In this document: positions 22,329 to 56,389 of the stretch, piece after piece
Layout of the letters: each line of letters begins with the position of its first letter
Position numbering within the stretch: position 1 is the stretch's first letter
Source of the DNA: a virus
Virus record (IMG/VR): IMGVR_UViG_3300046011_005443
Span: 1-64,000 of that record
Length of the DNA: 64,000 nucleotides
Strand: one strand, 5' to 3'
The notes under the pieces: model-generated
The model's database searches: none
Seen by the model: only the letters and a program-made list of their open reading frames with translations
What the model was told of the DNA's origin: nothing
Program-made: the position numbers and the translations under genes

Positions 22329-23495
22329 ATGTCACAATTACTCGAGTCACGCTGGTCGGAAACCAAAGACGCCCTTTTAGAAGGTCTTCAAGGTAACAAG
22401 CGTTCAGTAATGGCAACAACTCTAGAAAATACCCGCAAGTATTTGGCAGAGAGTGCCACCGCTGGAGCAACATCCGCCGGTAACGTTGCAACACTAAATC
22501 GTGTGATCCTTCCTGTGATCAGACGTGTAATGCCTACGGTCATTGCTAATGAATTAGTTGGCGTACAGCCAATGACAGGTCCAGTTGGTCAGATCCATAC
22601 TCTACGTGTTCGCTACAGCGATACATTTAGCGGCACTGGTGGAAACGTTACAGCTGGTGAAGAGGCTCTAAGCCCATTCAAGATTGCTGAAGGTTATGCT
22701 GGTGCTACTACTGGTAAGGCTGCTTCAACAGCTGCACTAGAAGGCGTAGCAGGTAACAAACTAAGCATTCAAATCTTGAAGCAAACAGTTGAAGCTAAGA
22801 CACGTAAGTTGTCAGCTCGCTGGACATTCGAAGCAGCTCAAGATGCACAAGCCCAACAAGGCATTGACATCGAAGCTGAGATCATGGCTGCTCTTGCACA
22901 AGAGATCACAGCTGAGATCGATCAAGAAGTTCTACGTAGCCTAGCTACATTGTCTTCAACAGTATTAACATATGACCAAGCTGCTGTATCTGGAACAGCA
23001 ACATTCGTTGGTGACGAGCATGCCGCATTGGCAGTTCAGATCAACCGTGCTGCTAACTTGATCGCTCAGCGTACACGTCGTGGTGCTGGTAACTGGGCAG
23101 TTGTATCACCAACAACATTAACATTGTTGCAAAGTGCTACTACTTCTGCTTTTGCTCGCACAACAGAAGGCACATTTGAAGCTCCAACAAACACCAAGTT
23201 CGTTGGTACATTGAACAGTGCAATGAAAGTGTATGTTAACACATATGCAGAGAACGACAACGTTCTAGTTGGTTACAAAGGTTCTAGCGAATCTGACGCA
23301 GCAGCATTCTATTGCCCATACATTCCATTGATGAGCAGTGGTGTTGTTCTTGACCCAGCAACTTTTGAACCAGTCGTGTCCTTCATGACACGTTATGGTT
23401 ATGTTGAGTTGACAAACACAGCTTCTTCTCTAGGTAACGCAGCTGATTACTTGGCGACTGTTGCTGTAACATCCGCTAACCTACGTTTTGCTTAA
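22329..23495 (+). CDS. 23: Major capsid protein gp23
   Basis: 388 residues, shorter than T4 gp23 (521). Family stretches include TFEAAQDAQAQQGIDIEAEI, KVYVNTYAENDNVLVGYKG and AAFYCPYIPLMSSGVVLDPA, then TFEPVVSFMTRYGY near the C-terminus. The first ~41 residues are a probable pro-segment ending YLAE-SATAG, matching the L-x-E gp21 cleavage rule; T4 gp23 loses 65. AAGGAGA precedes the ATG. Codon choice (repeated ACA, GCT, CGT) appears more uniform than in neighbours, as expected for the most abundant virion protein. A strong terminator follows. Confidence 0.97.
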   Translation: MSQLLESRWSETKDALLEGLQGNKRSVMATTLENTRKYLAESATAGATSAGNVATLNRVILPVIRRVMPTVIANELVGVQPMTGPVGQIHTLRVRYSDTFSGTGGNVTAGEEALSPFKIAEGYAGATTGKAASTAALEGVAGNKLSIQILKQTVEAKTRKLSARWTFEAAQDAQAQQGIDIEAEIMAALAQEITAEIDQEVLRSLATLSSTVLTYDQAAVSGTATFVGDEHAALAVQINRAANLIAQRTRRGAGNWAVVSPTTLTLLQSATTSAFARTTEGTFEAPTNTKFVGTLNSAMKVYVNTYAENDNVLVGYKGSSESDAAAFYCPYIPLMSSGVVLDPATFEPVVSFMTRYGYVELTNTASSLGNAADYLATVAVTSANLRFA

Positions 23496-44287: not shown

Positions 44288-45232
44288 ATGCCTTTTATCA
44301 GCACAATAAGAAGTCAATCAAATATTCAACAGCCCGAAAAAGCAATTTCGGAATCTATCTATGAAATCACTGGCGGTGATAAAGTATACACTGCTGGCGG
44401 CTATACCATTCACATGTTTACCACCGTGGGAGATCATCAGCTAAATGTCAAAGTCAAAGACCAATACAAAAATTCAGCAATGAATTTGGTGAATACCGCC
44501 GCTGGTATAACTGTGGAGTATCTAGTTATTGGCGGTGGCGGCAGCGGCGGCCAGGGATACAGCACCAACGGCAATGGTGGCGGCGGTGCCGGAGGATACC
44601 TATCAGGCACCACACCCCTGACAACAGGCACGACGCCAGTTACAGTTGGCACAGGTGGTGGACCTCAACCTTACAATGGCGGTGCAAATGGCGCTTCTAG
44701 TAATCTTGGACCTATACAGGGCATCTATGGAGGTTACGGCGGCTATTATCATGGCTCAGCCGGCCAATACGGTGGAAGTGGTGGCGGAGCAGCCTACGGC
44801 TACGGCGCCGGTTCGAGCCAACCGGGTCAAGGGTTTCCAGGTAGTCCATACACATATACTTGGTCGGGCGGTGGCGGTGGTGGGTCCAGTCAAGCCGGTC
44901 AGAATCATCAAGGTGGACTTGGTACCAGCAGCTCAATCACTGGCTCTGCATTAGCTCGAGCAGGTGGTGGTGGTGGTGGTGGTAACAGCTCAGAACCAGG
45001 TGGAGATGGAGCCAGCGGTGGCGGTAGAGGTCACGGATCTACTCCAAATTGGGGCTACAGCTACTATTCATACAGTCAAGATCCTCGCGGAGGATGGGGA
45101 GTAACTCATGCCTATACAGCTAATTCCGGATCAGGCGGCGGCGCAGGCTCATACTGGGCTCCAAACATTGGCTGGGGTGCAGGTTCGGGATACGGTGCCA
45201 GCGGCCTAGTGGTAGTAAGGTATCCTAACTAA
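44288..45232 (+). CDS. Glycine-rich adhesin-like protein
   Basis: 314 residues. DKVYTAGGYTIHMFTTVGDH is followed by VEYLVIGGGGSGGQG and a long region of Gly, Ser, Asn and Tyr with runs of up to seven Gly (e.g. ARAGGGGGGGNS), ending ASGLVVVRYPN. VEYLVIGGGG with a final VVVRYP is the frame of glycine-rich phage tip proteins. Polyglycine loops of this sort in T-even gp38 adhesins decide host range. It is the likely receptor-binding tip of a nearby fibre. Tyr-rich repeats (GGYGGYYHGSAGQYGGSGGG) are notable. Its stop overlaps the next start (TAATG). Confidence 0.65.
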   Translation: MPFISTIRSQSNIQQPEKAISESIYEITGGDKVYTAGGYTIHMFTTVGDHQLNVKVKDQYKNSAMNLVNTAAGITVEYLVIGGGGSGGQGYSTNGNGGGGAGGYLSGTTPLTTGTTPVTVGTGGGPQPYNGGANGASSNLGPIQGIYGGYGGYYHGSAGQYGGSGGGAAYGYGAGSSQPGQGFPGSPYTYTWSGGGGGGSSQAGQNHQGGLGTSSSITGSALARAGGGGGGGNSSEPGGDGASGGGRGHGSTPNWGYSYYSYSQDPRGGWGVTHAYTANSGSGGGAGSYWAPNIGWGAGSGYGASGLVVVRYPN

Positions 45233-45660
45233 TGGCAATTTTTAAAACCAATCGAGACATATTCACAGCGCCTTGGGAAGATGAATTGTTCAATGAGAAT
45301 TGGATGGATCATGATGTTCCTTATGCGCCACCAACTGTGGATTGGAAATATGATAGAGAAATGAGGATCGAGGATGTGGAAATCTGGGAACAGATTTGCT
45401 ACAAAACCGGAGGCATAGGGTTATATGCTGCATATCTGCCCTATGCTGAATTTTATATTGTCACAGGAAAATGGATACAGGCAAAACCTGGCAATATTGA
45501 ATGTTTTTACGGCCCAGGTTCCATGCAGGCTGCATATCGCAGAGCCAAAGAAGTAGGAATGATAGTTGCTGTAAAAGAAACCTGGGTAGACGATAAAGAT
45601 CTGTGGTTGCATCAACCTGGTGGAGCCAAACAGCAAGGCAATGTCACATTGTCTGATTAA
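45232..45660 (+). CDS. Unknown protein, family shared with the 49099 gene
   Basis: 142 residues with no recognised family. DVEIWEQICYKTGGIGLYAA, then YLPYAEFYIVTG, closely resembles DITVWEEIYFKPGVIGVYAA, then WDPYCEFYLVYY, in the protein encoded at 49099; both also carry a WVDD/WVDE near the C-terminus. The shared core looks like a small alpha/beta domain. It is coupled to the adhesin gene by TAATG and converges on the first oxygenase gene. Each member of the pair sits at an edge of the minus-strand oxygenase cluster, so a link to the fibres or to the oxygenases is possible. Confidence 0.55.
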   Translation: MAIFKTNRDIFTAPWEDELFNENWMDHDVPYAPPTVDWKYDREMRIEDVEIWEQICYKTGGIGLYAAYLPYAEFYIVTGKWIQAKPGNIECFYGPGSMQAAYRRAKEVGMIVAVKETWVDDKDLWLHQPGGAKQQGNVTLSD

Positions 45661-45668
45661 TTCCGGAA

Positions 45669-46268
45669 CTAGGCATATTCAAAGTTTGCGCTAATGCTAA
45701 TCCTAAGCTCTTTACTGTAATTTTTTTCCACCATGTGTGGAACATTAGATCTAAATATCAAAAGCAAATCGTCTACTGGTTCATACGTACAGGTTTTCCT
45801 GCTAGCAAAATTTTCAAGATTGCCTTCTACCGGAAGAGTATACATGTCAGTCATGGCTTCTATGCTTCTAAACCGAATTTTTCCACAATTTTCTAACACA
45901 GACAGATAGTAACTAACACTGAAATGAGATCGTGTGTGTTGATGATATTCTTGATAGGCTCCCGGTTCTGCAAGATTAAACCAAAAGTCTTTGCAGTAAA
46001 GAGTTTCGATGGGAAGATTAATACCGTAGTTTTTACCAAATTCGTGTACCTTGTTTCGAAGCAGCTCAATCAAGGATATAACTATAGTGTCTTGATCAGA
46101 TCTATAATCATAAAATCCCACAGTATTGTAGGTATCACAGGCCCACTTGGTAACAGTATGACCTTGAGTCTGAAAATATATGGTCTTGGCCTTGTTTACA
46201 AGATACTGTCTATGTTGAAAATTTAATGTATCATTGTAGATCAGTGTGGGGAACCAACCGTCTATCAT
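45669..46268 (-). CDS. 2OG-Fe(II) oxygenase-like protein 1
   Basis: 199 residues. EYHQHTRSHFSVSYYL gives a His-x-His iron-binding pair (109/111), VPHMV supplies the distal His (178) and ELRISISANF the Arg (189) expected to bind 2-oxoglutarate. The jelly-roll strand order (FWFNLAEPG before the first motif; DDLLLIFRSNVPHM before the distal His) matches the TIGR02466-type putative 2OG oxygenases. Such enzymes use O2 and 2-oxoglutarate to hydroxylate a substrate. Its start overlaps the stop of oxygenase 2 (ATGA). It is the last gene of a minus-strand group of five. Substrate unknown. Confidence 0.72.
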   Translation of the reverse strand: MIDGWFPTLIYNDTLNFQHRQYLVNKAKTIYFQTQGHTVTKWACDTYNTVGFYDYRSDQDTIVISLIELLRNKVHEFGKNYGINLPIETLYCKDFWFNLAEPGAYQEYHQHTRSHFSVSYYLSVLENCGKIRFRSIEAMTDMYTLPVEGNLENFASRKTCTYEPVDDLLLIFRSNVPHMVEKNYSKELRISISANFEYA

Positions 46269-46942
46269 TTGGTGTATTGGATATAGGATTTCTCAGCCAC
46301 AGCATCACCGGGTTTAGTAGATGTTTTATATTCTTTTAGAAGTTCTAGACTAGGGACGGTGCCTAGCATGCCCAAAGAATCACGTTTGTCCCATTTCCAT
46401 TCTGCATTTGGTCCATGAGCATCTACATAATGAAAGAAAGCCTGCACTTGCCAAGCATCTTGACCTTTGTCGAAAGGTTCGCGCCAATGAGGCACATCAC
46501 ATCCTCGATAAATTGCTAGGTCACCGGGTAGTAGATCCACTCGATTACCATCCATATATATTGACCAAACTTTGTCAGCATCGTAATTGAAATTGAAACA
46601 CAGAGTTGCAGAAATTTCACAACTAGGCCTATCTACATGGGGAGTAAGTGTGTCACCGTTTCTATAAACTCTATAATAGCAATAAGTTGGAAACAGAGAA
46701 AAACCCACTGCTTGTTCTAGCACAGGTTGCAGATGCAACAACATGCTTTCCATTGCAGGATCACAGTATTTTGAATGAGCTTCAGCACACTGAGCTCCGT
46801 CGCCCATTAAGGCTTTTTCCGGAGTGAAATCTTGCATTTCATCAAACAGAGCATATTGAGTGACAAAATCTCTTAGTTCCGTGGAGATTGCGGATCTTAA
46901 TACTAAGTATTTGTTTTTTTCAAAAAAGTCTTTATTTTCCAT
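46265..46942 (-). CDS. 2OG-Fe(II) oxygenase-like protein 2
   Basis: 225 residues from the ATG at 46942, chosen because AAGGAGC lies 8 nt upstream; an in-frame start 30 nt earlier is possible. The facial triad appears as HVD (His102, Asp104) and His152 in DVPHWREPF; YRVYRNGDTLTPHVDRPSCE and SATLCFNFNYD show the double-stranded beta-helix strands. AFFHYVDAHGP ends the fold. It differs in sequence from the other oxygenases of the cluster. It overlaps the upstream gene by 11 nt and the downstream one by 4, indicating coupled translation. Substrate unknown. Confidence 0.78.
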   Translation of the reverse strand: MENKDFFEKNKYLVLRSAISTELRDFVTQYALFDEMQDFTPEKALMGDGAQCAEAHSKYCDPAMESMLLHLQPVLEQAVGFSLFPTYCYYRVYRNGDTLTPHVDRPSCEISATLCFNFNYDADKVWSIYMDGNRVDLLPGDLAIYRGCDVPHWREPFDKGQDAWQVQAFFHYVDAHGPNAEWKWDKRDSLGMLGTVPSLELLKEYKTSTKPGDAVAEKSYIQYTK

Positions 46943-47735
46943 TTGAAGCTCCTTGATGAAAAGGACAACCAAGTGCTTGTTGTTCTATTTTTTCATGCAG
47001 TCTTTTTTTGTTATTATAAAGTTGAGTAGAATCACGATATTCATCTCTTTTCATCACAAATTTATCAATGCCAAATACTCGTTGATATTCGGACTGAGTG
47101 ACCAAATGATGCACAAGTTTGATCTTCTTTTCAGTCATAGGGTGCATAATAGCCAGTGGAGTCAACGGCAGTATGGTGCAAGTTTGCAATTCTTTGGTCT
47201 GTTTTACAAATAGGTTAATTTCAGTGGCATGGGTATATTTGTAGTTCACTAAGCCAGGCAATACTGATATAACTCCATGGGTGTCTTGCATATTCCATAA
47301 CGGTTCAGTCCAAGTAAAATTCATGTCTTTTTTAGTTTTAATTGCCCAGGGAGAAATAAGTTTTATATTATGACCATGCTGGCCAGCAAAGCCAGGAAAT
47401 TGCACACCTGGATGATTAGTAGGAGTAGAAACGTCCCCGTTAGAACTCACCCATTCCCACTCTTTTTCAGATCCTATGGGATTTACCATCATATTCATTT
47501 CAAACCATGAAGGAATAGCTATGCCTTTTTTATAGTATTCTATAATTGCGTTACAATGTTTTATGGTTACCAAAGGGGGATCAGAGTCTGGCACTTTTGA
47601 TGGCAACTGTCTCCACCAATCCGGAGCATACTTCATAGCCCAGTCAATTTTAGCGTAGTCGTAGGCATGTGCAAGATGAGTAAAGCAGTCTACTACCACT
47701 TCTTCTTGTCTAGTAAAAAAATACGGAAATTTCAT
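46932..47735 (-). CDS. Unknown protein, family shared with the 53919 gene
   Basis: 267 residues. I do not recognise the family with certainty. CNAIIEYYKKGIAIPSWFEM, ISPWAIKTKKDMNFTWTEPL, SVLPGLVNYKYTHATEINLF and CTILPLTPLAIMHPM can be aligned by eye with matching blocks in the 53919 protein (CPGINILQSQGFVVRAWQDI; ITGWCCKIPSDYLLIQ; ALSGIYSSDYGINNI; IKAGTPLAQLIAVP). The beta-rich core with a P-L-A turn could be a cupin-like fold, but no metal-binding triad is evident. A CPFH sequence lies near the C-terminus. In both clusters this family is flanked on both sides by 2OG oxygenase genes, so a shared pathway is likely. Confidence 0.55.
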   Translation of the reverse strand: MKFPYFFTRQEEVVVDCFTHLAHAYDYAKIDWAMKYAPDWWRQLPSKVPDSDPPLVTIKHCNAIIEYYKKGIAIPSWFEMNMMVNPIGSEKEWEWVSSNGDVSTPTNHPGVQFPGFAGQHGHNIKLISPWAIKTKKDMNFTWTEPLWNMQDTHGVISVLPGLVNYKYTHATEINLFVKQTKELQTCTILPLTPLAIMHPMTEKKIKLVHHLVTQSEYQRVFGIDKFVMKRDEYRDSTQLYNNKKRLHEKIEQQALGCPFHQGASNGK

Positions 47736-48400
47736 AATAATATTTGTCTCGATGCAGGAATAGGAAAATAATCAGAACTTACTTCTTGAATAAAAAATAC
47801 CTGTGTAAGTCTGGGCCTGTTATCATGCCCTGTAAATTTATTTACACCATGATACTGGAATCCGTCATAGGCAACAATTCTATTATAGATATTTTTAAAA
47901 TTCACAGTTTCTTCAAATAGACTGTTGTTTTCCTGTAGCTTTTCATTATAGAAATCAGTTTTAGTTCTATCAAAGTTCAAAAACATATCTTGTTTTTCTT
48001 CTAGATTGATCGGTATATCAAATGGTTTTTTTGGTCTAAACAACGAAGTGCCGCAGCCCGTATCTATACCGGGAGTGAGATATATCACCCCAGCATATGG
48101 CTTATAGTCTGCATGAATCCATCCTTGATTGATTGATGAGTATTGATCTGGTTCTGCAATTTGGAAGTAGGTTTCCACAGCCCATTTAACACTGTTGGTT
48201 TTTTTAAAATCAAAGGTCAGGGAAAATAGCTTATCGCAGAAATTTTTAAAAAATACAGGATTTACAGAATCTAGGGAAGGTGATCTTTTGCCAGGCCATG
48301 GCACATTAGAAGTTGTTTTGAATTCTAAAGATAACGCAAACTCTCTGATCACATTCGGATCGTTATAAAAATTATCTACACACAGAGAAGGAAAATACAT
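47732..48400 (-). CDS. 2OG-Fe(II) oxygenase-like protein 3 (DUF6445-like)
   Basis: 222 residues. VDNFYNDPNVIREFALSLEF with a PGKRS motif soon after is the typical opening of DUF6445-like proteins. The metal site is WIHADYKPYAGVIYLTP (His96, Asp98) with a distal His184 in DGFQYHGV and Arg197 in RPRLTQVFF. I infer a 2OG-dependent oxygenase, although the family is poorly characterised. A Phe/Lys-rich central segment (120-160) is predicted to cap the active site. Its stop overlaps the start of the next gene (ATGA). Substrate unknown. Confidence 0.65.
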   Translation of the reverse strand: MYFPSLCVDNFYNDPNVIREFALSLEFKTTSNVPWPGKRSPSLDSVNPVFFKNFCDKLFSLTFDFKKTNSVKWAVETYFQIAEPDQYSSINQGWIHADYKPYAGVIYLTPGIDTGCGTSLFRPKKPFDIPINLEEKQDMFLNFDRTKTDFYNEKLQENNSLFEETVNFKNIYNRIVAYDGFQYHGVNKFTGHDNRPRLTQVFFIQEVSSDYFPIPASRQILL

Positions 48401-48401
48401 A

Positions 48402-49031
48402 TTATATTTCTCTATCCTTGATCCACGTTACCATGCTGTATTTTGTGCCAGATGTTATTGGGTGTGCAATGTGTAGATACGCATAGTTGGATGGGAACAA
48501 AATTAACATTCCGGGTTCAGGTTTAATTTTTACGTGAAAATTAGGAAATTCCAACTCACCTCCTTCAAAATTGTCATTTAAATAACACAAGCAAGATATT
48601 GCTCTTCCTATAGGAGTTCCGCCATCATAATGTCCTTTGTATTCTTCGCCTTGATCGTATTTTAACATTTGATAATGTTCGTGCCAAAGACCTTCCTTGA
48701 TATTAAATCTTTTAGCATAGGGAATTGATGCTGCTAATAATAACATATAGAACTGATTATGAACATTTTGTAATACAGCATTATTGGTAATTCCTGCTAG
48801 ATGAGTAACTCCCATCATTTTGTTTGTTCTGTGTGTTTGATGTGGTCCTTCCTGAGTGGTTTCGGCTCGTTGCCAATGCACTCCGGAATCTGAATTAGAA
48901 GCTGCGTTTTCCACCATCTTGATAGTGTTCTCTGGGTTCGGCCAGGCATTTTCATAAATGGCAATACAACCTGCTATCACAGTGCTTGGCTGTAGTTCCC
49001 CAGGAAAAAAATTGTTTATTACCACGGTCAT
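48402..49031 (-). CDS. Prolyl-4-hydroxylase-like 2OG-Fe(II) oxygenase 4
   Basis: 209 residues. The P4H-type signature is complete: YQMLKYDQGEEYKGHYDGG (His134-x-Asp136), CLCYLNDNFEGGELEFP, GMLILFPSNYAYLHIAHPI (distal His187) and GTKYSMVTWI with Lys197 as the 2OG-binding base. Members include prolyl and other peptidyl hydroxylases. A collagen-like Gly-x-Pro segment occurs in the fibre gene 49739, about 700 bp away, giving one possible substrate. A late promoter and an AAGGAC ribosome site precede it; it is the first gene of the minus-strand oxygenase operon. Confidence 0.85.
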   Translation of the reverse strand: MTVVINNFFPGELQPSTVIAGCIAIYENAWPNPENTIKMVENAASNSDSGVHWQRAETTQEGPHQTHRTNKMMGVTHLAGITNNAVLQNVHNQFYMLLLAASIPYAKRFNIKEGLWHEHYQMLKYDQGEEYKGHYDGGTPIGRAISCLCYLNDNFEGGELEFPNFHVKIKPEPGMLILFPSNYAYLHIAHPITSGTKYSMVTWIKDREI

Positions 49032-49056
49032 ATTGTTGTCCTTTTATACGAGCTAT

Positions 49057-49065
49057 GCTATTTAA
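49057..49065 (-). promoter_or_regulatory. Late promoter of the minus-strand oxygenase operon
   Basis: The minus strand reads TTAAATAGC, 25 nt before the start at 49031, with AAAAGGACA in the leader. It lies back to back with the plus-strand late promoter at 49085. Confidence 0.5.
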
Positions 49066-49084
49066 GAGAGCAACGGAATTATTT

Positions 49085-49093
49085 CATAAATAC
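49085..49093 (+). promoter_or_regulatory. Late promoter, 6 nt from the 49099 start codon
   Basis: CATAAATAC is followed by TGATT and ATG. No ribosome site fits between, so the message should be leaderless. Confidence 0.6.
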
Positions 49094-49098
49094 TGATT

Positions 49099-49443
49099 AT
49101 GGCCACCCGTTTTATTTCCAGCGACGAGATATTCAGTCACAAGTTTTATAAAAATTATTGTCAAAACATCTCGTCTAACAATTTGCAAACTACTGCTACT
49201 CCTTGTGTTGCAGATATAACAGTTTGGGAAGAAATTTATTTTAAACCAGGTGTAATAGGTGTATACGCTGCCTGGGATCCTTATTGTGAATTCTATTTGG
49301 TTTATTATCCTGTGTTAGCGGAAACAAAGTTCCATTCGTTGACATTTTTTGGAAAAGATGCTTCGAATAGGGTTCAGGAATTTCTTGCAACATATGATAT
49401 AGATCTTGCTACCAACAATGTATGGGTAGATGAAATCAACTGA
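49099..49443 (+). CDS. Unknown protein, family shared with the 45232 gene
   Basis: 114 residues. DITVWEEIYFKPGVIGVYAA and WDPYCEFYLVYY match the core of the 45232 protein; the N-terminal 35 residues do not. NNVWVDEIN at the end corresponds to the WVDD of its relative. No known family or catalytic motif is seen. It is expressed from a late promoter, with only 6 nt between TAAATA and the ATG, and overlaps the opposite-strand gene by 8 nt. Confidence 0.6.
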   Translation: MATRFISSDEIFSHKFYKNYCQNISSNNLQTTATPCVADITVWEEIYFKPGVIGVYAAWDPYCEFYLVYYPVLAETKFHSLTFFGKDASNRVQEFLATYDIDLATNNVWVDEIN

Positions 49444-49672
49444 ATTTCAATGAAAAAGTCATCAGATCTAAACTATTTGAAAACTCAATGCAACTCCAAT
49501 CTTCAGAAATTGATGATTTAAATTCTGTTTGCCAGTGATGTCTAATCACAGACTGTAGATCTAAAGACAACTGATCTGTATTATTTTGTTTTTCTATAAG
49601 ATATTCCACGGCTTTGAGAAAAACAGGACTCACAGCGCAGTCATCTTGTAGTATTTTGATAGTCAAAGTCAC
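49436..49672 (-). CDS. Small unknown protein with GTG start
   Basis: 78 residues: TIKILQDDCAVSPVFLKAVE, YLIEKQNNTDQLSLDLQSVI, RHHWQTEFKSSISEDWSCIE. No family recognised. It looks real because a perfect TATAAATA late element ends 4 nt before the GTG, the same geometry as other late genes here. It converges on the 49099 gene with 8 nt overlap. A start other than GTG is possible, but there is no nearby ATG. Confidence 0.5.
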   Translation of the reverse strand: MTLTIKILQDDCAVSPVFLKAVEYLIEKQNNTDQLSLDLQSVIRHHWQTEFKSSISEDWSCIEFSNSLDLMTFSLKFS

Positions 49673-49676
49673 TGTT

Positions 49677-49684
49677 TATTTATA
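49677..49684 (-). promoter_or_regulatory. Perfect late promoter TATAAATA, 4 nt from a GTG start
   Basis: The minus strand reads TATAAATA-AACA-GTG. This is the closest match to the T4 late consensus next to a start codon in the window. Confidence 0.7.
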
Positions 49685-49706
49685 GGTATCCAGTCTGCAT
49701 TTTTAG

Positions 49707-49715
49707 AATAAATAA
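49707..49715 (+). promoter_or_regulatory. Late-type promoter for the cupredoxin fibre gene
   Basis: AATAAATAA lies 24 nt before the ATG at 49739; only a weak AAAGAA ribosome site follows. Confidence 0.45.
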
Positions 49716-49738
49716 TAGACTAATAACAAAGAATATCA

Positions 49739-52021
49739 ATGGCCAAAATATCCGTATCCGATGCAGTAAGAATAATTCCAAGAGACGCTGAATTTCTGAA
49801 CAGAAAGTCAGGGCTAAGAGGTGAAGTTTTTTACGATCAAACAGCTAATACCCTTAGAATTTACAACGGATCATCCACTGGCGGATTAAATTTAGCTAGA
49901 GGAGATCTTGCCAATGTGTCAACCAGTGATTTTAGATCTAAGTCTGTGGTTTCTAAACTGGCTACAGTCACATATCAGGTAACAATCACAGGTCCTCAAG
50001 GCGGCGATACAGGCAACAAATACAATCTTAACGGTGTTTATCGTCCTATACTGAATTTTGTAGTGGGCTATACCTATGTGTTTGTTCAGGACGATCCTAC
50101 CAACGTCTACTTTCCTAACGTCAATGGAACTACAGTAAATCAGCATCCTTTGAATTTTTCCGCAGATAATCTCAGTGGAAACAATGGCGGCGGCACAAGT
50201 TATCTTGTAGATGTGCAATATTACCTAGATAATGTTAATGTTACACAGGCAGTGTATAACAGTAATATGTTTGCCACAGCCACTGCACGGCAGGTGCGTA
50301 TCACAGTCACTAATTCTACGCCAGCTTTGCTCTACTATTGGTGTTGGAATCACTTGGCCATGGGTCAGTCAATAGCAGTAGCAGATCCTGGATCAGGAAC
50401 CGGTAGCGGAGGCGCACTAAATGACTTGAGTGATGTTGTGTTAACAACTCCAACAATTAACCAGGTGTTGAAGTATAACGGCACAAATTGGATTAATGAT
50501 ACAGACTTAGAGTCTAATAGTTTTGCCACAATAGCAGTAGCAGGGCAAAGCTCAGTGGCTGCGGGCACCCCCACAGATACGCTGACACTAGTGGCAGGCG
50601 CAGGTATAACCCTCACAACTAATGCTGGCACAGATGCCATTACAATTACCAGCACAGCCAGCACAGGCAACATAACATTTGTTGCTAACACCATAGACAG
50701 CACAGACAGCACAGCTATCACTGTAACTCCTGCTGTAAATTTTGAATCAGATGTGGTAGTAGGCAATGAAATCGTATTTGCAGACGGCACAAGACAGAAT
50801 ACTTCTGCTGTAGGTGTACCTGGGCCAGTAGGACCGCAAGGGCCAGCAGGAGCTTCGGGAGCAGGTACAGGAGATGTTCTTAGCAGTGGTGGCGGATATG
50901 TCGATAATGCTATTGTACGCTATGACGGTACTACCGGTACTATCATACAAACCAGCTCTGCAACCATATCAGATGCTGGACTACTTACGGCCACTAACTT
51001 CAGTGGTGGAGGTTCAGCACTTACTTCGTTAAATGCTACGCAGTTGACTTCAGGCACCATACCGGACGCCAGATTTCCGGCTACGTTGCCTGCAGTGAGT
51101 GGCGCAAATCTCACAGCACTTCCTGCAACATTACCAGCGGCCAGCGGGGCTAATCTCACAGCATTAAATGCTACACAACTCACCAGCGGCACAGTACCCA
51201 TCGGAAGACTCGGGTCGTCAGGAACACCTAGTGCCAGCACCTACCTTAGAGGCGACAATACATGGGCTACTGTTTCGGGCGGAGGATTAGCATCTGACAG
51301 TTTTGCCACTATATCTGTGGCAGGCCAATCGAATGTTGTAGCAGATTCAGCCACAGACACACTAACACTGGTGGCAGGTACAGGCATTACTATTACCACA
51401 GATGCAGGTACAGACACTGTGACCATTACCAACTCAGGTACTGGCCAAAACACTTTTGAAACAATAGCAGTAGCTGGGCAGAGTTCTGTGGTAGCAGATT
51501 CGGCCACTGACACTCTTACTATAGCTGCAGGCACAGGGATCTCAATAACCACGGATGCCGGCACAGACACAGTGACAATTACCAGCACAGTCAGCGCAGG
51601 CGCCACATCATTCACCGGACTAAGTGATCGTGCAGATCTCACCATAGACCAATTTTATCTACAGGCAATAACAAGACTTAATGTCACAAACAACGGAGCT
51701 AGTGCTTACAGATTTGACCAATATGGCACCACTGACGATCCTACAGTCTATGCCATCAATGGCACCACCATAGCTTTCAATCTCAATGTGACTGGACATC
51801 CATTCTTGATACAAGACGGCGCTGGCGCAAATTATAACACAGGATTGGTACACGTGACCACAGGGGGCACCGTAACTACAGGAGCGTCGGCTCAAGGTCA
51901 AACATCGGGCACACTATATTGGAAGATTCCAGATTCAATTACTGGTAGCTACAGATATCAGTGTAGTGTTCATGCTGCTATGATTGGAACTATTCAGATT
52001 AAAAACTTTGCCAGTATTTAA
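49739..52021 (+). CDS. Tail-fibre protein with two cupredoxin-like domains and a collagen-like segment
   Basis: 760 residues. The N-terminus (RDAEFLNRKSGLRGEVFYDQ) is a usual fibre start. Residues ~75-215 form a beta domain with NQHPLNFS (His136) and YYWCWNHLAMG (Cys202, His205, Met208). The C-terminal ~85 residues repeat the design: VTGHPFLIQ (His687) and YQCSVHAAMIG (Cys742, His745, Met748). His...Cys-x2-His-x2-Met is the type-1 copper pattern of amicyanin. Between them are Gly-x-Y triplets (359-376; GVPGPVGPQGPAGAS), ALTSLNATQLTSGT repeats and three copies of a FATIAVAGQSSV...GTDTVTIT unit. The gene stands between the two oxygenase clusters. Copper binding is predicted, not shown. Confidence 0.7.
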   Translation: MAKISVSDAVRIIPRDAEFLNRKSGLRGEVFYDQTANTLRIYNGSSTGGLNLARGDLANVSTSDFRSKSVVSKLATVTYQVTITGPQGGDTGNKYNLNGVYRPILNFVVGYTYVFVQDDPTNVYFPNVNGTTVNQHPLNFSADNLSGNNGGGTSYLVDVQYYLDNVNVTQAVYNSNMFATATARQVRITVTNSTPALLYYWCWNHLAMGQSIAVADPGSGTGSGGALNDLSDVVLTTPTINQVLKYNGTNWINDTDLESNSFATIAVAGQSSVAAGTPTDTLTLVAGAGITLTTNAGTDAITITSTASTGNITFVANTIDSTDSTAITVTPAVNFESDVVVGNEIVFADGTRQNTSAVGVPGPVGPQGPAGASGAGTGDVLSSGGGYVDNAIVRYDGTTGTIIQTSSATISDAGLLTATNFSGGGSALTSLNATQLTSGTIPDARFPATLPAVSGANLTALPATLPAASGANLTALNATQLTSGTVPIGRLGSSGTPSASTYLRGDNTWATVSGGGLASDSFATISVAGQSNVVADSATDTLTLVAGTGITITTDAGTDTVTITNSGTGQNTFETIAVAGQSSVVADSATDTLTIAAGTGISITTDAGTDTVTITSTVSAGATSFTGLSDRADLTIDQFYLQAITRLNVTNNGASAYRFDQYGTTDDPTVYAINGTTIAFNLNVTGHPFLIQDGAGANYNTGLVHVTTGGTVTTGASAQGQTSGTLYWKIPDSITGSYRYQCSVHAAMIGTIQIKNFASI

Positions 52022-52096
52022 TTTTCTTTCAATTCTGACATTATAAATCAAATAGTTGATAATAGCTAATTTATTTTTGAATCTGAAATTATTGAA

Positions 52097-52104
52097 TTAA
52101 ATAC
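52097..52104 (+). promoter_or_regulatory. Late promoter of the plus-strand oxygenase cluster
   Basis: TTAAATAC lies 23 nt before the ATG at 52128. The 106-nt gap from 52022 to here is AT-rich and holds no gene or terminator that I can see. Confidence 0.5.
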
Positions 52105-52127
52105 TCGTTTGCAAAGTATATGAGATC

Positions 52128-52727
52128 ATGAATCCACAAATTATTCCAATTTTTCCTGCAGCTATCTATAGAATCAATCTTAGAAAGTTATCAGCGGCTG
52201 AACGAATTGCATATGACACTAATACCGTAACCTCTATAAGTAGACAAGGCAATCAGACATCTGTTAATTCAACCCTGCTTGATAGCGATGTATTCTCAGA
52301 TTTGAAAAACATATTCATGGAGCATGTACATAATTATGCTCGAGAAGTGATTAAAACAAACTGCCAATTTTATATGACAAATTCCTGGAAAAATCAAAAT
52401 AAAAAAGGACAACCACACGATCTGCACAATCACAGAAATAGCGTGATTTCAGGAGTATACTATGTGAATGTTGCAGACAGTGAAAATTCTATCTGTTTCA
52501 ACAGGCTAACATCACCGTTTTTTATGGAGTTTGAGTGCAGCGAACGTACACCATTTAACAGCATAGAATGGCAGATTCCTGTTGAAGATGCAATGTTAAT
52601 ACTTTTTCCTTCCACTCTCTTTCACAGTGTGCCTGTAAATACCACAAACAACGAACGATTGAGTATTTCTTTTAATACTTTCATCAAAGGTAATTTCAAT
52701 AATAACACTCTTGTGATCAACGCATAG
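52128..52727 (+). CDS. 2OG-Fe(II) oxygenase-like protein 5
   Basis: 199 residues of the TIGR02466-like type. NPQIIPIFPAAIYRINL opens the fold; KGQPHDLHNHRNSVISGVYY carries the iron ligands (His100-x-His102), FPSTLFHSV the distal His166 and NERLSISFNTFIKG the Arg177. Oxygenases 5 and 8 share this design (N/H-x-N-S-x-x-SGV-x-Y; FPS-x-L-x-HSV; R-I/L-S-L/I-SFNT-x-x-x-G) and are clear paralogues. First gene of the plus-strand cluster. Substrate unknown. Confidence 0.8.
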   Translation: MNPQIIPIFPAAIYRINLRKLSAAERIAYDTNTVTSISRQGNQTSVNSTLLDSDVFSDLKNIFMEHVHNYAREVIKTNCQFYMTNSWKNQNKKGQPHDLHNHRNSVISGVYYVNVADSENSICFNRLTSPFFMEFECSERTPFNSIEWQIPVEDAMLILFPSTLFHSVPVNTTNNERLSISFNTFIKGNFNNNTLVINA

Positions 52728-52736
52728 CATAAATAC
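52728..52736 (+). promoter_or_regulatory. Late promoter for the rubrerythrin-like gene
   Basis: CATAAATAC lies 35 nt before the ATG at 52772; CCGGAGAT follows as ribosome site. A classical leader, in contrast to the leaderless group. Confidence 0.6.
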
Positions 52737-52771
52737 ACTATATAATTTTACTCATTCCGGAGATCATTTAC

Positions 52772-53302
52772 ATGAACACAGAATTACCAGTCCCAGAGGG
52801 ATATCAAGAACCATTAATTCCGCCCCCTGATCTTGATCCAAATACACCGTTGGCTATTCCAGTGGCATTGAATAGCAAGACTGCAGCCAATCTTAAACTG
52901 GCGTTTGCTGCCGAGGCACGATCTAATGATAGATATCACTATTTTGCTACTGTGGCTGAAAAATATGAAGATGCAAATGCTACAGCTTATTTTAAACAGA
53001 TTGCCGAAGAAAAACATATGTTTGCTCAAGGCCATTTAAAAGAAGCTATTTTAGGTGGATTAGGTGATCCAGATACTGGAAAGCCATCAATGCATATTAC
53101 CCAGGTATTGGAAACTGCAATTGCTTCTGAAATGCAAGCATCGGTTGAGCTGTATACAAAATATGCAGATGATGCTCGAGAAGACAAGTTGCCGCATTTA
53201 GCAGAGTGGTTTATTGAATTATCAAGAAGAGCATCTGCTCATAAAAAATCATTCGAAGACCTGCTGAAATACTACGATCCTGCCCCACCCGACAACGAAT
53301 AA
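52772..53302 (+). CDS. Rubrerythrin-like ferritin-fold diiron protein
   Basis: 176 residues; a four-helix bundle after a Pro-rich lead (1-35). Helix 1 has NLKLAFAAEARSNDRYHYFA (Glu48 expected to bind iron), helix 2 has QIAEEKHMFAQGHLKEAIL with an ExxH (Glu79, His82), helix 3 ETAIASEMQASVELYTKYAD (Glu114/Glu120) and helix 4 WFIELSRRASAHKKSF, where the usual second ExxH is degenerate (Ala154 in place of Glu, His157 kept). No rubredoxin domain follows. Rubrerythrins reduce peroxide. A phage copy between Fe(II) oxygenases may protect them from peroxide or supply iron; that is inference. It has its own late promoter. Confidence 0.75.
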   Translation: MNTELPVPEGYQEPLIPPPDLDPNTPLAIPVALNSKTAANLKLAFAAEARSNDRYHYFATVAEKYEDANATAYFKQIAEEKHMFAQGHLKEAILGGLGDPDTGKPSMHITQVLETAIASEMQASVELYTKYADDAREDKLPHLAEWFIELSRRASAHKKSFEDLLKYYDPAPPDNE

Positions 53303-53320
53303 GTTATATAATCTGTTCGC

Positions 53321-53875
53321 ATGAATCGAGTAGACTCAACTCTACCAATATTTTTACACCAAGGGTTAAAATCTTATCCAATTGATTGGATGAAGACACA
53401 GGTGTTAGCCGCACATCACAAGGCAGACTACAACACCGGAAATAATTTTCAAATCAACGATTCTTCGGGAGTGTTTCACACCTTATACAAAGATTTTTTT
53501 CATATTGCCAACCAGCATTTTGGTCCACTAGAATTAGATCAAAGAAATCTTGCCAGCTGTTGGGGTTATGTAACGAACAAATTTTTTTACAAAGGTGGCA
53601 TCCATAATCACCTAAATACCTGTGTAATTAATGCTGTTTACTATTTGAATATACCCGAGACTGCAGATAGACATCAAGGGTCTCTAAGTTTTTATGATAA
53701 TAACTTTCATGAAATCTATAATATAAGACCCAACGTTGGTGATTTGATTATTTTTCCAGGATATCTTAACCATCAGCCTCATCAATCATTTAGTTTAGAT
53801 TATAGAGTTTCTATTAACATGGAAATTATTTGTCAAAATGTCTGGGGTGTTGACAACAACTCTGTTTTGAGTTAA
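53321..53875 (+). CDS. 2OG-Fe(II) oxygenase-like protein 6
   Basis: 184 residues. YKGGIHNHLNTCVINAVYYL holds the iron pair His95-x-His97, DLIIFPGYLNHQPHQS the distal His151 (or His154) and DYRVSINMEI the Arg162. WGYVTNKFFYKGG before the first motif is the strand seen in related phage enzymes. A TATAAT box lies 8 nt before the ATG (53307-53312), without a clear -35, so it may have its own weak promoter; no ribosome site is seen. Substrate unknown. Confidence 0.75.
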   Translation: MNRVDSTLPIFLHQGLKSYPIDWMKTQVLAAHHKADYNTGNNFQINDSSGVFHTLYKDFFHIANQHFGPLELDQRNLASCWGYVTNKFFYKGGIHNHLNTCVINAVYYLNIPETADRHQGSLSFYDNNFHEIYNIRPNVGDLIIFPGYLNHQPHQSFSLDYRVSINMEIICQNVWGVDNNSVLS

Positions 53876-53882
53876 TGATTGC

Positions 53883-53911
53883 TTGTAAAATCTGTGTTGA
53901 TGTGTTATAAT
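53883..53911 (+). promoter_or_regulatory. Sigma70-type promoter for the 53919 gene
   Basis: TTGTAA (53883-53888), 17-bp spacer, TATAAT (53906-53911). The ATG follows after 7 nt, so the message is predicted to be leaderless. This suggests expression of 53919 and the following oxygenases independent of late promoters. Confidence 0.65.
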
Positions 53912-53918
53912 CAAAGAC

Positions 53919-54647
53919 ATGACTGCACAAAAGATTATATTTTATCCCACTATACCTGGCATCGATAAGACAATGCCGATTTTATCTGCAGATAAAATCG
54001 TGCATAATTGGAAACAGGAAGCAGCTAGAGAATTTAAAAATCAAAAAAATAATCTCGGGCATGCCATACACAGCATTTCTAATTGTCCCGGAATCAACAT
54101 CTTACAGAGTCAAGGGTTTGTAGTGCGAGCATGGCAAGATATCTACGTCAAAGCAGATTCGTCACAGGATAAAATACAGTGGAGAACTCCTATTGATCAA
54201 GAAAAAATCAACGGCAGTCCGGCGATTGAGGAACATCAAGACAGTTTGTTTAAAACATTTCAAAACTGGCCGAATCATTCTAGCCGATCTGTGATAAAAT
54301 TTATCACTGGCTGGTGCTGTAAAATTCCCAGTGATTATCTTTTAATACAAACTTCTGTATTCTACGCCGATGAAAATCGATTCACTGCTCTAAGTGGGAT
54401 TTATTCAAGTGACTACGGAATCAATAACATAAATGTTCCGGTATTTTGGCACAACCTCAATGAGGAAACCGTGATCAAAGCTGGCACCCCCCTTGCACAA
54501 TTAATTGCAGTTCCTAAGAATTCCTTGGAATTAGAAATCAGAACTGATATTAGCAAAGAAGAACTAACGATAAATTATATATTGATGAACAATACTTTCG
54601 TAAGAAATTACGCTAAGATCAAATCATATTTTCAGGGAAATCAATAG
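53919..54647 (+). CDS. Unknown protein, family shared with the 46932 gene
   Basis: 242 residues. CPGINILQSQGFVVRAWQDI, ITGWCCKIPSDYLLIQTSVF, ALSGIYSSDYGINNINVPVF and VIKAGTPLAQLIAVPK line up with blocks of the 46932 protein. No catalytic motif is recognised. Its ATG is 7 nt after a TATAAT box, so it is probably translated from a leaderless mRNA. It ends in TAGTG, overlapping the next oxygenase start by one base. Membership in both clusters beside 2OG oxygenases suggests it acts with them, for example by presenting or modifying the same substrate. Confidence 0.55.
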   Translation: MTAQKIIFYPTIPGIDKTMPILSADKIVHNWKQEAAREFKNQKNNLGHAIHSISNCPGINILQSQGFVVRAWQDIYVKADSSQDKIQWRTPIDQEKINGSPAIEEHQDSLFKTFQNWPNHSSRSVIKFITGWCCKIPSDYLLIQTSVFYADENRFTALSGIYSSDYGINNINVPVFWHNLNEETVIKAGTPLAQLIAVPKNSLELEIRTDISKEELTINYILMNNTFVRNYAKIKSYFQGNQ

Positions 54648-55168
54648 TGCAAAGTACATTGTTTGAAACAAAATTTTATAGTTATTATATCAATGATTGG
54701 GAATCAAAGAAAGAAAAAATTTCAAAAAAAATTAATGCAGCGGCATTGGTAAGAAAGCCCGGTCAATTGTTTGCAAGCGATCGAGGTAATAACAGCTATC
54801 AGTCTGAGTTTGTTGAAATTTTTAAGAATGAACTGGCTCTGTTTTCTAATGAAATTAAAGTAGAATCATTAGATATAGGCGACGTATGGACAGTGTCTTA
54901 TGCAAAAGATGAATTTCATATCCCTCATAATCACTCGGGGGTGGGATATTCGGGAATCATCTATTTAGATTACGATGAAACCTTACACAGTCCAACTTAT
55001 TTTATTAATCCTGTAAATAATCCCATAACTGATCAAACAGAGATAAAGAATATTGAAGCCAGTGAAGGATTAATGATTATTGTACCGAGTAATATTTTAC
55101 ATTACACGTTGCCTAATAATTCACACACAATCAAAACTATAATTGGCTTTGATTTAAAATTTAGATAA
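54647..55168 (+). CDS. 2OG-Fe(II) oxygenase-like protein 7 (GTG start)
   Basis: 173 residues. EFHIPHNHSGVGYSGIIYLD holds His91, His94 and His96, of which two should bind iron; VPSNILHYTLP has the distal His152, and HTIKTIIGFDL has Lys163 where most relatives carry Arg to hold 2-oxoglutarate. The fold otherwise matches the TIGR02466-like group. GTG start overlapping the previous stop (TAGTG). The Lys for Arg change is also seen in the P4H-like enzyme 4 and is tolerated in that family. Confidence 0.72.
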   Translation: MQSTLFETKFYSYYINDWESKKEKISKKINAAALVRKPGQLFASDRGNNSYQSEFVEIFKNELALFSNEIKVESLDIGDVWTVSYAKDEFHIPHNHSGVGYSGIIYLDYDETLHSPTYFINPVNNPITDQTEIKNIEASEGLMIIVPSNILHYTLPNNSHTIKTIIGFDLKFR

Positions 55169-55178
55169 GGCGGTTTCT

Positions 55179-55865
55179 ATGACACATGATGTTATTCCGT
55201 TATTTCCAACTCCATTATTTGTTGCAGAGATACAAGGATTCACCAACGAAGAATTAGAATTTGTAAAACAGTCATCTTTGTATTCTCGATACAAAGATGA
55301 ACCAGGAAGATGTGTAGGATCGGATAGATTTGATATCATACATTTACCTGAAATGTCAAGAGTATGTGATTTTGTGCAAACACAGTTGAATCTATATGCT
55401 CGAGAGGTAATGTCTATATCTAATCAGTTGTTTCCTACTATCAGTTGGTTGAATCGTACCACAACAGGTGCATATCATTATCAACATCATCATGTGAATA
55501 GCATTGTCAGCGGAGTTCTATATTTCACAGAGGATCCTGCACCTATTGAATTTCACGTAGATAAAAATTGTGTTTGGGGCTCATTAAAGATGTTTCCTAT
55601 CAAATATAATCAATATAACACTCATAGCACCACAGTTGAAATCAAACAAGGAACATTATTGATATTTCCGTCCTACTTAGAACATTCTGTAATGAGATCA
55701 ATAGCTGACACTGATAGGATAAGTTTATCTTTTAACACTTGGGTGAATGGAACAATAGGCCTATTAGATAAGACCAGTTTTTTAAATTTAGATGCTCCAA
55801 CATTAAAATTTGAGCCCAAAGACAATTTGAATGTGTTGATAGAACGACAACGATTGCAAAAATGA
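55179..55865 (+). CDS. 2OG-Fe(II) oxygenase-like protein 8
   Basis: 228 residues, paralogue of oxygenase 5. VIPLFPTPLFVAEI opens the fold; GAYHYQHHHVNSIVSGVLYF carries the iron ligands (among His103-His105), LIFPSYLEHSV the distal His169 and TDRISLSFNTWVNG Arg180. A C-terminal extension of ~40 residues (FEPKDNLNVLIERQRLQK) is absent in oxygenase 5. AAGGCGG lies before the ATG. Its stop overlaps the next start (ATGA). Substrate unknown. Confidence 0.8.
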   Translation: MTHDVIPLFPTPLFVAEIQGFTNEELEFVKQSSLYSRYKDEPGRCVGSDRFDIIHLPEMSRVCDFVQTQLNLYAREVMSISNQLFPTISWLNRTTTGAYHYQHHHVNSIVSGVLYFTEDPAPIEFHVDKNCVWGSLKMFPIKYNQYNTHSTTVEIKQGTLLIFPSYLEHSVMRSIADTDRISLSFNTWVNGTIGLLDKTSFLNLDAPTLKFEPKDNLNVLIERQRLQK

Positions 55866-56389
55866 TTAAACAGTATAACAAATTCACAGACGAATGGTTG
55901 CATTCTATAGTTAAAGAACAAGTATTAAATCCGATGTTAGATTGGAATTTTCCAAGTTATGCAACCGGTGAAATCGATTTAGAAAAGGCGGCATTTGGTA
56001 AGTTAACATTTAATAAACAACAAAACATCAATAATTGGAACAGAGTAGAATCATTGACCTATGTTCTTGATCGATGGTTAGATCAAAATAAAGAATGGTT
56101 TAAAATTGATTTTTTAAATCACTGTATGATAAATTTTTACACTGCTGGTCAGGTCACTGCCTGGCATAATGATAACTCTTATAAATTACCTGGAACATAT
56201 AGTTTACTTTATTATGTAGATGATAGCAATGGCGGGACTGAATTTGAACATCAAAAATGTTTCCACAAAGAAAACACAGGCATATTTTTTGATTCTAATC
56301 TAAGTCATAGACCGATTGCGTCAACTAAACCTAGACGTATAAGTGTAAGTTGGGTTCTAAAAGGAACAATTTTGCACAATGCTCAATAA
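55862..56389 (+). CDS. 2OG-Fe(II) oxygenase-like protein 9
   Basis: 175 residues. INFYTAGQVTAWHNDNSYKL gives His102-x-Asp104, GTYSLLYYVDDSNGGTEFEH the following strands with a typical NGGTEF turn, FFDSNLSHRPI the distal His149 and KPRRISVSWVL the Arg (158/159). It is closer in design to P4H-type enzymes than to oxygenases 5 and 8. Last gene of the plus-strand cluster, coupled to oxygenase 8 (ATGA) and convergent with the minus-strand tail genes, with only 7 nt between the stops. Confidence 0.8.
   Translation: MIKQYNKFTDEWLHSIVKEQVLNPMLDWNFPSYATGEIDLEKAAFGKLTFNKQQNINNWNRVESLTYVLDRWLDQNKEWFKIDFLNHCMINFYTAGQVTAWHNDNSYKLPGTYSLLYYVDDSNGGTEFEHQKCFHKENTGIFFDSNLSHRPIASTKPRRISVSWVLKGTILHNAQ

Follow-up and report, generated by a model that had tools for sequence, protein, structure and literature searches.

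Genes at the locus

The DNA analysed here, called the window in the following, comprises bases 1-64,000 of the 103,120-base IMG/VR virus record IMGVR_UViG_3300046011_005443 (L001 among our loci). It stems from a T4-like phage whose capsid protein (gene 22329-23495) is, among named phages, nearest to those of the jumbo T4-like Phosso, Vibrio phage 2.275.O and PA5oct, with 67-72% identity. We describe an island of nine genes of the 2-oxoglutarate (2OG)-Fe(II) oxygenase type within 10.7 kb, which is laid out as two opposed operons around a fibre gene (Table 1; genes and proteins are named by their first coordinate). All nine open reading frames (ORFs) are present at the coordinates and on the strands given in the original prediction, and evidence from Pfam, PHROG, a structure model and the triads confirms the nine members as real. 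Five further IMG/VR contigs carry the same island, with proteins 46265 and 47732 identical; one of them, of 281,658 bases, is called G001. A megablast search with 24 kb of the window against phages gave no match.

Six of the nine proteins exceed the cut-off of a Pfam 2OG family, namely five in PF13759 (45669, 52128, 53321, 54647, 55179) and one in PF13640 (48402), and two of the five PF13759 proteins, 45669 and 52128, also exceed the cut-off of TIGR02466. The remaining three are assigned by a match below cut-off (55862; 24.9 bits against PF13640, cut-off 27), a profile-profile match (47732) and an AlphaFold model (46265). Protein 47732 is above the DUF6445 cut-off. When this type is compared with the PF13759 type by hhalign, the two triads coincide (E 3.3e-5, probability 72%), and the four residues listed for 47732 in Table 1 are kept in all 13 aligned sequences of its family; the DUF6445 profile found no match among solved structures.

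Protein 46265 has no Pfam match of any kind at E ≤ 1, and its only PHROG matches, phrog_2954 and phrog_3531, are both labelled "ferrochelatase". Its AlphaFold model (mean predicted local distance difference test, pLDDT, 86.7) matches folds of the prolyl-4-hydroxylase (P4H)/PHD2 type, with 4j25 as the best hit (E 1.7e-10), 569 PDB chains at E ≤ 0.001 and a TM-score (by query) of up to 0.61. Structure prediction, which had been proposed as a check, thus bears out a P4H-type fold for this protein. A ferrochelatase identity is ruled out, as the model is P4H-like and no ferrochelatase occurs among the 50 matches listed. A double-stranded beta-helix is the fold predicted for 46265 by its model and for the other eight by homology.

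A putative iron triad is found in all nine proteins, of the form HxD..H in four (46265, 47732, 48402, 55862) and HxH..H in the five PF13759-type proteins, where the histidines are invariant in 11 aligned sequences. An Arg or Lys after the distal His is the usual 2OG-binding residue. A candidate for it stands 9-13 residues past this His in eight of the nine proteins (Lys in 54647 and 48402), while the 46265 family has an invariant Gln at the usual position (+15, 21 of 21 rows) and K159 is not conserved. The earlier description of a triad plus a basic residue is therefore right for the triad motif throughout and has to be corrected for the basic residue in the 46265 family. "Oxygenase-type" is a safe label for all nine; 2OG-dependence is predicted from sequence and is least secure for the HxH group and the Gln-bearing 46265 family.

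The best pair in an all-against-all comparison of the nine shows 24.6% identity (27% for the same pair in a multiple alignment). Because pairwise identities reach at most about 25-27%, a recent tandem duplication was rejected; of the earlier view of an assembled set combined with recent duplication, the assembly from several old sequence types remains. DNA-modification and AlkB-type families were rejected as well: among the nine, Pfam gives no Tet/JBP or AlkB match above cut-off, and Tet_JBP for 48402 (0.065) and 2OG-FeII_Oxy_2 for 55862 (0.006) are both below it.

Oxygenase-type proteins are found here under three PHROGs labelled ferrochelatase (phrog_2954), DNA endonuclease V (phrog_274) and minor coat protein (phrog_1644), and the same words are in use as RefSeq phage product names. 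All three labels seem to mislead by concealing proteins of the oxygenase type. Beyond the window, PF13640 has one more match (2.6e-18) at 92866-93177 of the record, where the surrounding genes resemble, by eye and from their sequence starts, genes of surface-sugar synthesis.

Table 1. Features of the island and its surroundings (window coordinates; E-values follow the family names).
Feature	Position	Strand	Evidence and remarks
Oxygenase 1	45669..46268	-	PF13759 4.7e-16; TIGR02466 72 bits, cut-off 62.5; HQH109-111, H178, R189
Oxygenase 2	46265..46942	-	phrog_2954 type; H102, D104, H152; Gln167 at usual Arg/Lys site
Oxygenase 3	47732..48400	-	DUF6445, PF20043 1.8e-13; H96, D98, H184, R197
Oxygenase 4, P4H-like	48402..49031	-	PF13640 1.3e-15; HYD134; first gene of minus operon
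Oxygenase 5	52128..52727	+	PF13759 7.7e-22; TIGR02466 above cut-off; 106 nucleotides past fibre gene, same strand
Oxygenase 6	53321..53875	+	PF13759 1.3e-8, above cut-off
Oxygenase 7	54647..55168	+	PF13759 2.8e-8, above cut-off; Lys replaces Arg
Oxygenase 8	55179..55865	+	PF13759 2.3e-20
Oxygenase 9, P4H-like	55862..56389	+	PF13640 4.1e-5, below cut-off; phrog_274 5.9e-16; HND102, H149
Family q, copy 1	46932..47735	-	Partner protein, predicted dUTPase fold, not an oxygenase; phrog_7084 1.1e-13
Family q, copy 2	53919..54647	+	phrog_7084 5e-40
Gly-rich adhesin-like ORF, 314 amino acids, 28% Gly	44288..45232	+	PF21722 Gly_rich_2 1.8e-7; proposed substrate
142-amino-acid protein between Gly-rich ORF and island	45232..45660	+	Relatives at same place in L131, L134
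114-amino-acid protein	49099..49443	+	Paralogue of 45232-45660 (30% identity, 1e-10); ATAAATA at -13
Structural/fibre protein, 760 amino acids	49739..52021	+	phrog_677 1e-49, phrog_708 1.3e-16; ATAAATA at -31
Rubrerythrin/ferritin-like protein	52772..53302	+	PF02915 5.2e-11; within plus operon
Tail/fibre-like protein, 300 amino acids	43370..44272	+	phrog_8780 minor tail protein 2.2e-15
Giant fibre-like protein, 2614 amino acids	35168..43012	+	Six carbohydrate-binding CBM_5_12 stretches
Giant fibre-like protein, 1871 amino acids	29519-35134

A partner family with a predicted dUTPase fold

Two further genes of the island, 46932 and 53919, were missed in the original prediction as mutual homologues that recur in modules elsewhere. 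An iterated profile built from either copy recovers the other, and we call this family q. Foldseek with the AlphaFold model of 46932 (mean pLDDT 92.1) gives 2zdc as the best hit (6.4e-4), the one match at E ≤ 0.001, and the matches listed are nearly all dUTPases. VIA-align against 2y8c yields Z 9.5 over 120 residues at a root-mean-square deviation of 2.8, where a best Z of 7-8 is common for models without a clear match. According to the model, q would thus share its fold with dUTPase and dCTP deaminase and differ from them by being roughly 100 residues longer; we assign the fold only and claim no activity. All 61 aligned members share one Cys. The column which we take, by eye, to be that of the dUTPase catalytic Asp (motif 3) holds D in 33, N in 13, E in 13 and S in 2 of the 61 sequences, and the window copies carry Asn in one case and Ser in the other.

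A relationship of q with SapC was considered and dropped, as there is no profile similarity (hhalign E 0.28-0.6). In tblastn searches against named phages, 46932 has no match at 1e-3, while 53919 does match. Four tandem, divergent q genes occur in a single module at L030 (10906-13766) and at L181 (7827-10681), an arrangement unlike that of a housekeeping nucleotide enzyme.

A recurrent module and its linkage to Gly-rich ORFs

Two locus scans kept the best 80 of 597 relatives and, for family q, the best 80 of 125; the latter gave 55 distinct IMG/VR loci with a q anchor. Within 6 kb of this anchor, 34 of them have three or more oxygenase genes and 20 have five or more, and a halogenase is found in 19. 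Among loci with full flanks, the corresponding figures are 21 of 26 for at least three oxygenase genes and 11 of 26 for a halogenase. Modules hold one to four q copies, some exceed 16 genes (e.g., L181 and L030), and order and orientation vary from locus to locus. Halogenase, q and oxygenases occur together in the phages syn9, S-CREM1, S-RIM44 and P-TIM40, and the blocks of syn9 and S-CREM1 contain two and one tryptophan halogenases, respectively, plus a q gene. We see in the island an example of a phage module that recurs, made up of divergent oxygenases (of the PF13759, PF13640/P4H-like, DUF6445 and phrog_2954 types) and q, in many phages together with halogenase homologues.

In the window, the ORF 44288-45232 lies one small gene away from the island and downstream of the giant fibre-like genes. 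It is above the PF21722 cut-off (31.8 bits against 24.3), and its counterpart in G001 is the sole called ORF there with at least 150 amino acids and at least 20% Gly. From its place after the giant fibre genes, and by analogy with the adhesins described in PMC8651126, we consider it a candidate fibre-tip adhesin.

Linkage between Gly-rich ORFs and module genes was tested in three sets, namely module-selected records, loci anchored on the 46265 family, and contigs selected by their capsid gene. The first set consists of nine records fetched for module-family genes, with our own record left out and G001 included. Of the 17 Gly-rich ORFs, ten have two or more module genes no further than five genes away (null mean 2.97; matched by 18 of 5000 rotations; the rotation nulls treat linear fragments as circles). 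By record, six of the eight records with Gly-rich ORFs show the linkage (null 1.65, 3 of 5000), and at a distance of three genes the test by record again gives 3 of 5000. Overlap filtering in gene calling may drop real genes; in these nine records it removed the q gene of S-RIM44 (6.9e-34 with the q profile) in favour of an overlapping halogenase ORF. Genes of at least 1000 amino acids are not linked to the module, with 6 of 62 against 9.6 expected at five genes and 19 of 62 against 14.4 at eight genes (482 of 3000).

Of the 69 distinct 46265-family anchors, 27 have a Gly-rich ORF within 4 kb, as do 6 of the 15 with full flanks. The density of such ORFs is 0.138 per kb at a distance of 1-2 kb, compared with 0.010 over the nine records. 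For the q-anchored loci the values are 18 of 55 and, with full flanks, 15 of 32. At the module loci, Gly-rich ORFs of about 280-375 amino acids stand in runs beside the module, and PF21722 matches seven of the ten Gly-rich module neighbours scanned.

From 80 loci, the third set takes every contig of 50 kb or longer, ten in all. Gly-rich ORFs occur on two of these contigs, three on each, and every one of the six has two or more module genes at a distance of five genes or less (null 1.15, 128 of 5000). One of the two contigs carries 9 oxygenase genes, four halogenases and two q genes, the other 12 oxygenase genes, four halogenases and one q gene. PF21722 matches occur in four of the ten contigs; oxygenase genes are present in three of these four and in none of the six others. 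One of the three, G022, carries four oxygenase genes, of which three lie at a distance of 4.5-6.5 kb from its PF21722 match. The other seven contigs have neither an oxygenase gene nor a Gly-rich ORF by our criterion, and one of them, G031, starts inside its PF21722 match. Four capsid-bearing contigs of 55-63 kb (G027, G028, G030, G031) have 22-37 called ORFs, far below the other records, which reflects either very long genes or a gene-calling problem.

The original prediction had placed the oxygenase genes next to fibre genes. Stated more precisely, they are linked to Gly-rich adhesin-like ORFs and show no link to long genes in general. A single pathway acting on fibre proteins, one of the possible targets named there, is plausible, and we judge the chances about even that the module modifies the adhesin at the distal end of the fibre or a protein that works together with this adhesin. 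The main rival, to which we give roughly one part of belief in four, regards the fibre region as an insertion hotspot, the part of the genome with most gene exchange, in which oxygenases are cargo and act on something else. The varying order and orientation of the modules fits this view. So does the small gene separating the Gly-rich ORF from the module: in the window's group it has no BLAST similarity to its counterpart in S-RIM44, P-TIM40 and S-CREM1, and hafunavirus adhesins are described as lying in a hypervariable region (PMC8651126; literature statements here and elsewhere refer to excerpts of the cited papers). Speaking against a hotspot, though not decisively, Gly-rich ORFs show the association and genes of at least 1000 amino acids lack it, and q is found again and again in combination with the same oxygenase types.

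Number and clustering of oxygenase genes

The number of nine, put forward earlier as unusual, is ordinary for this kind of phage. Iterated profiles (ox5, p4, p10), which widen over rounds so that counts may include distant relatives, and which may miss JmjC/cupin-type genes and divergent "minor coat" copies, give 13 oxygenase-type genes in G001, 13 in syn9, 9 in S-CREM1, 12 in S-RIM44, 4 in G011, 25 in P-SSM2, 6 in G013, 19 in HTVC008M and 11 in Mosig. Because these nine other records have 4-25 genes and print reports ten 2OG oxygenases in S-CREM1 (PMC9964418) and 24 in S-SCSM1 (PMC9602691), nine cannot count as exceptional; S-SZBM1 is likewise reported with nine, which are scattered (PMC9146016). 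The original prediction had named as refuting a survey in which nine per genome is normal and unlinked to fibre genes. The first part describes what we find, and the second does not, in view of the linkage to Gly-rich ORFs. What seems to be new is the genomic context, that is, the q pair and the Gly-rich neighbours, and not the gene number.

The clustering test covered seven records, with G011 and G013 outside. In G001, 9 of 13 oxygenase genes lie inside 16 consecutive genes (null maximum 7, 0 of 5000), and dense clustering is also significant in S-CREM1 (7 of 9; 0 of 5000) and syn9 (8 of 13; 1 of 5000).

Many oxygenase genes also sit away from Gly-rich ORFs, a distribution expected if the enzymes serve host metabolism, regulation or DNA repair, by drawing down 2-oxoglutarate, modifying host proteins or repairing DNA. 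Effects on 2OG levels, NtcA and DNA repair have been proposed for cyanophages (PMC3037559), as has host reprogramming (PMC9602691), and in other phages oxygenase genes are reported near uvsX, uvsY and uvsW (PMC9146016). We regard such a role of the module as unlikely. It leaves the linkage to Gly-rich ORFs and the shared q genes unexplained, as well as the need for up to 25 divergent enzymes (P-SSM2, by profiles) to handle one metabolite, and the lack of an AlkB or Tet/JBP match above cut-off among the nine speaks against DNA repair.

Neighbouring genes and promoters

The "fibre gene" inside the island, 49739-52021, has PHROG matches of the baseplate-wedge and tail-fibre-connector types. More informative as a neighbour is 44288-45232, the Gly-rich ORF, which lay outside the region first outlined. 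Protein 49739 contains a six-triplet collagen-like Gly-X-Y run (GVPGPVGPQGPAGASGAG) and, by eye, two CxxHxxM loops similar to cupredoxin copper sites. The paralogous small proteins 45232-45660 and 49099-49443 occur at both island halves. A rubrerythrin-like gene also occurs in the islands of relatives, with four distinct sequences including that of the window; its product might serve the oxygenases by managing iron or peroxide.

The 103-kb record has 44 called genes preceded by a gap of at least 20 nucleotides, and for 16 of them the motif ATAAATA stands at most 80 nucleotides upstream, where base shuffling gives an expectation of 1.49 and a maximum of 6. From this placement the upstream copies are likely late promoters. 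Within the island they precede 49099, 49436, 49739 and 52772, and none is found within 80 nucleotides before 49031, the start of the minus operon, or before 52128; the earlier claim of an island under late promoters therefore applies to part of it. TATAAATA is not enriched in the window (3 against 4.1 expected).

Proposed function of the module

Our data show the families or folds, the triads, the gene content that modules share and the linkage to Gly-rich ORFs; what the enzymes do, on which substrate, how q takes part and how the phage benefits is what we infer here. Late in infection, the oxygenases would draw on Fe(II), O2 and 2-oxoglutarate and hydroxylate particular residues, either in the fibre-tip adhesin itself or in a fibre protein or chaperone that is bound to this adhesin. 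Each oxygenase would have its own site, which would explain why there are many divergent paralogues instead of a single one. In phages with halogenases, these would halogenate aromatic residues, and q may present or recognise the substrate. Tips modified in this way could alter receptor binding, folding or stability. A more specific version is possible and clearly less probable than the general reading: swappable site-specific hydroxylases, in relatives together with halogenases, would write non-standard residues into the Gly-rich adhesin, such that host recognition is chemically tuned, with q as a substrate-handling partner.

Several observations weigh against modification of the fibre adhesin. 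Clustering of oxygenase genes is not significant in HTVC008M, P-SSM2, S-RIM44 and Mosig (235-596 of 5000), and of the 69 loci anchored on 46265 only 12 show three or more additional oxygenases within 6 kb, on contigs that are often short. The linkage depends on distance and threshold: at three genes the ORF count is not significant in the nine records (516 of 5000) or in the capsid-selected set (2 of 6; 1409 of 5000), and with a threshold of 25% Gly it is lost (3 of 7; 392 of 3000). No Gly-rich ORF is near the module in P-SSM2 (0 of 4) and G011 (0 of 1), G013 has the module and no Gly-rich ORF by the threshold, and many oxygenase genes are located elsewhere in the genomes. The joint absence of adhesin and module from capsid-selected contigs is weak evidence, because contigs are fragments and neighbours may be lost together. 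For S-SZBM1 and P-TIM40 alike, the authors on S-SZBM1 report no long tail fibre (PMC9146016). In the six haloarchaeal viruses examined, q also adjoins ribonucleotide reductase or thymidylate synthase, and when four ORFs neighbouring q in HF2 and four in HRTV-5 were compared with the oxygenase profiles, none matched.

Two further points of this kind concern the halogenases. No match to the tryptophan halogenase family (PF04820) was found in the window record or in G001; the halogenase is therefore optional. Enrichment of aromatic residues in Gly-rich proteins beside halogenases is at most slight, with 3.7 against 2.65 Trp and 11.25 against 10.93 Tyr per protein (n = 20 and 55), and the halogenation part of the proposal thus gets no help from it.

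Halogenase homologues accompany many modules, and PrnA-like antibiotic protection has been suggested (PMC9964418, PMC2984593). Oxygenases and halogenases might accordingly tailor a secreted or intracellular small molecule or peptide. We hold this to be improbable for the module, with the missing halogenase match in the window record and G001 as a weak counterpoint, scaffold-forming enzymes not having been searched for.

For the many 2OG oxygenases of marine T4-like phages, the tentative answers so far, in the excerpts we cite, are 2OG draw-down, DNA repair and host reprogramming. The open-licence literature, as far as its excerpts and listings go, yielded no statement that ties oxygenase clusters or halogenases to fibre adhesins. 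With the statistical link to Gly-rich adhesin-like genes and a recurrent partner protein, the question becomes testable on phages already in culture. If adhesin modification is true, enzymatic post-translational chemistry joins the means by which phages set their host range.

Comparison with known systems

Among solved structures, the P4H/PHD2 group (4j25, 4iw3, PHD2 entries and the viral vCPH 5c5t) shares with 46265 the predicted fold and the HxD..H motif, and 46265 differs by the conserved Gln at the usual 2OG-binding Arg/Lys site. For the TIGR02466/PF13759 type, the window's PF13759 profile finds 3bvc and 2rg4 at 1.5e-18 and 1.8e-18; these entries give no function, and the PF13759 motif is HxH rather than HxD.

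Family q leads to haloarchaeal viruses. The copy 53919 is matched by 63 named records, of which at least 48 are haloarchaeal by name. An ORF with 24-28% Gly lies 0.9-1.4 kb from q in HF2, HRTV-5, HRTV-7, HCTV-7 and Serpecor1, and HRTV-2, the sixth virus examined, has no such ORF near q. A Gly-rich adhesin is described as the key host-range determinant of a haloarchaeal virus family (PMC8651126).

Bacterial halogenase loci offer an analogy, not further members of the module. The best 80 of 567 were kept, and by profiles built from few members they contain a TonB-receptor-like gene in 35 cases, Cupin_8 in 12, SapC in 7 and DUF6445 in 3. In the three DUF6445 loci (Ferrimonas marina, Pseudoalteromonas rubra and an Enterobacterales metagenome-assembled genome), which represent a halogenase-SapC-Cupin_8-DUF6445 type, Pfam confirms the TonB receptor in two and SapC and Cupin_8 in two. 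Like the phage module, they cluster DUF6445 with hydroxylase-type genes, in two of three with a surface-receptor gene; unlike it, they have no q and no fibre genes by the profiles used. By this analogy, the phage enzymes might modify surface proteins or glycans of the host instead of the virion, given that halogenase, SapC, cupin/JmjC and DUF6445 genes lie beside TonB receptors in bacteria. We consider this very improbable, as q is not SapC-like and it is adhesin-like genes of the phage itself that the module accompanies.

The closest counterparts of the island are blocks in marine T4-like phages, namely syn9 gp45-54, S-CREM1 ORF72-80, HTVC008M gp68-72, Mosig 00055-00060, and those of S-RIM44 and P-TIM40. 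By annotation and by our profiles they contain the same oxygenase types, and most of them likewise have a Gly-rich ORF close by. Family q is present in syn9, S-CREM1, S-RIM44 and P-TIM40 as in the window, and none was found in HTVC008M and Mosig. Unlike most of these blocks, the window is without a tryptophan halogenase, a feature which it shares with Mosig. The window phage differs from the carriers of these blocks in its capsid protein, which is nearest to that of the jumbo phages named above, and the opposed operons around a fibre gene together with the rubrerythrin-like gene also set the window apart.

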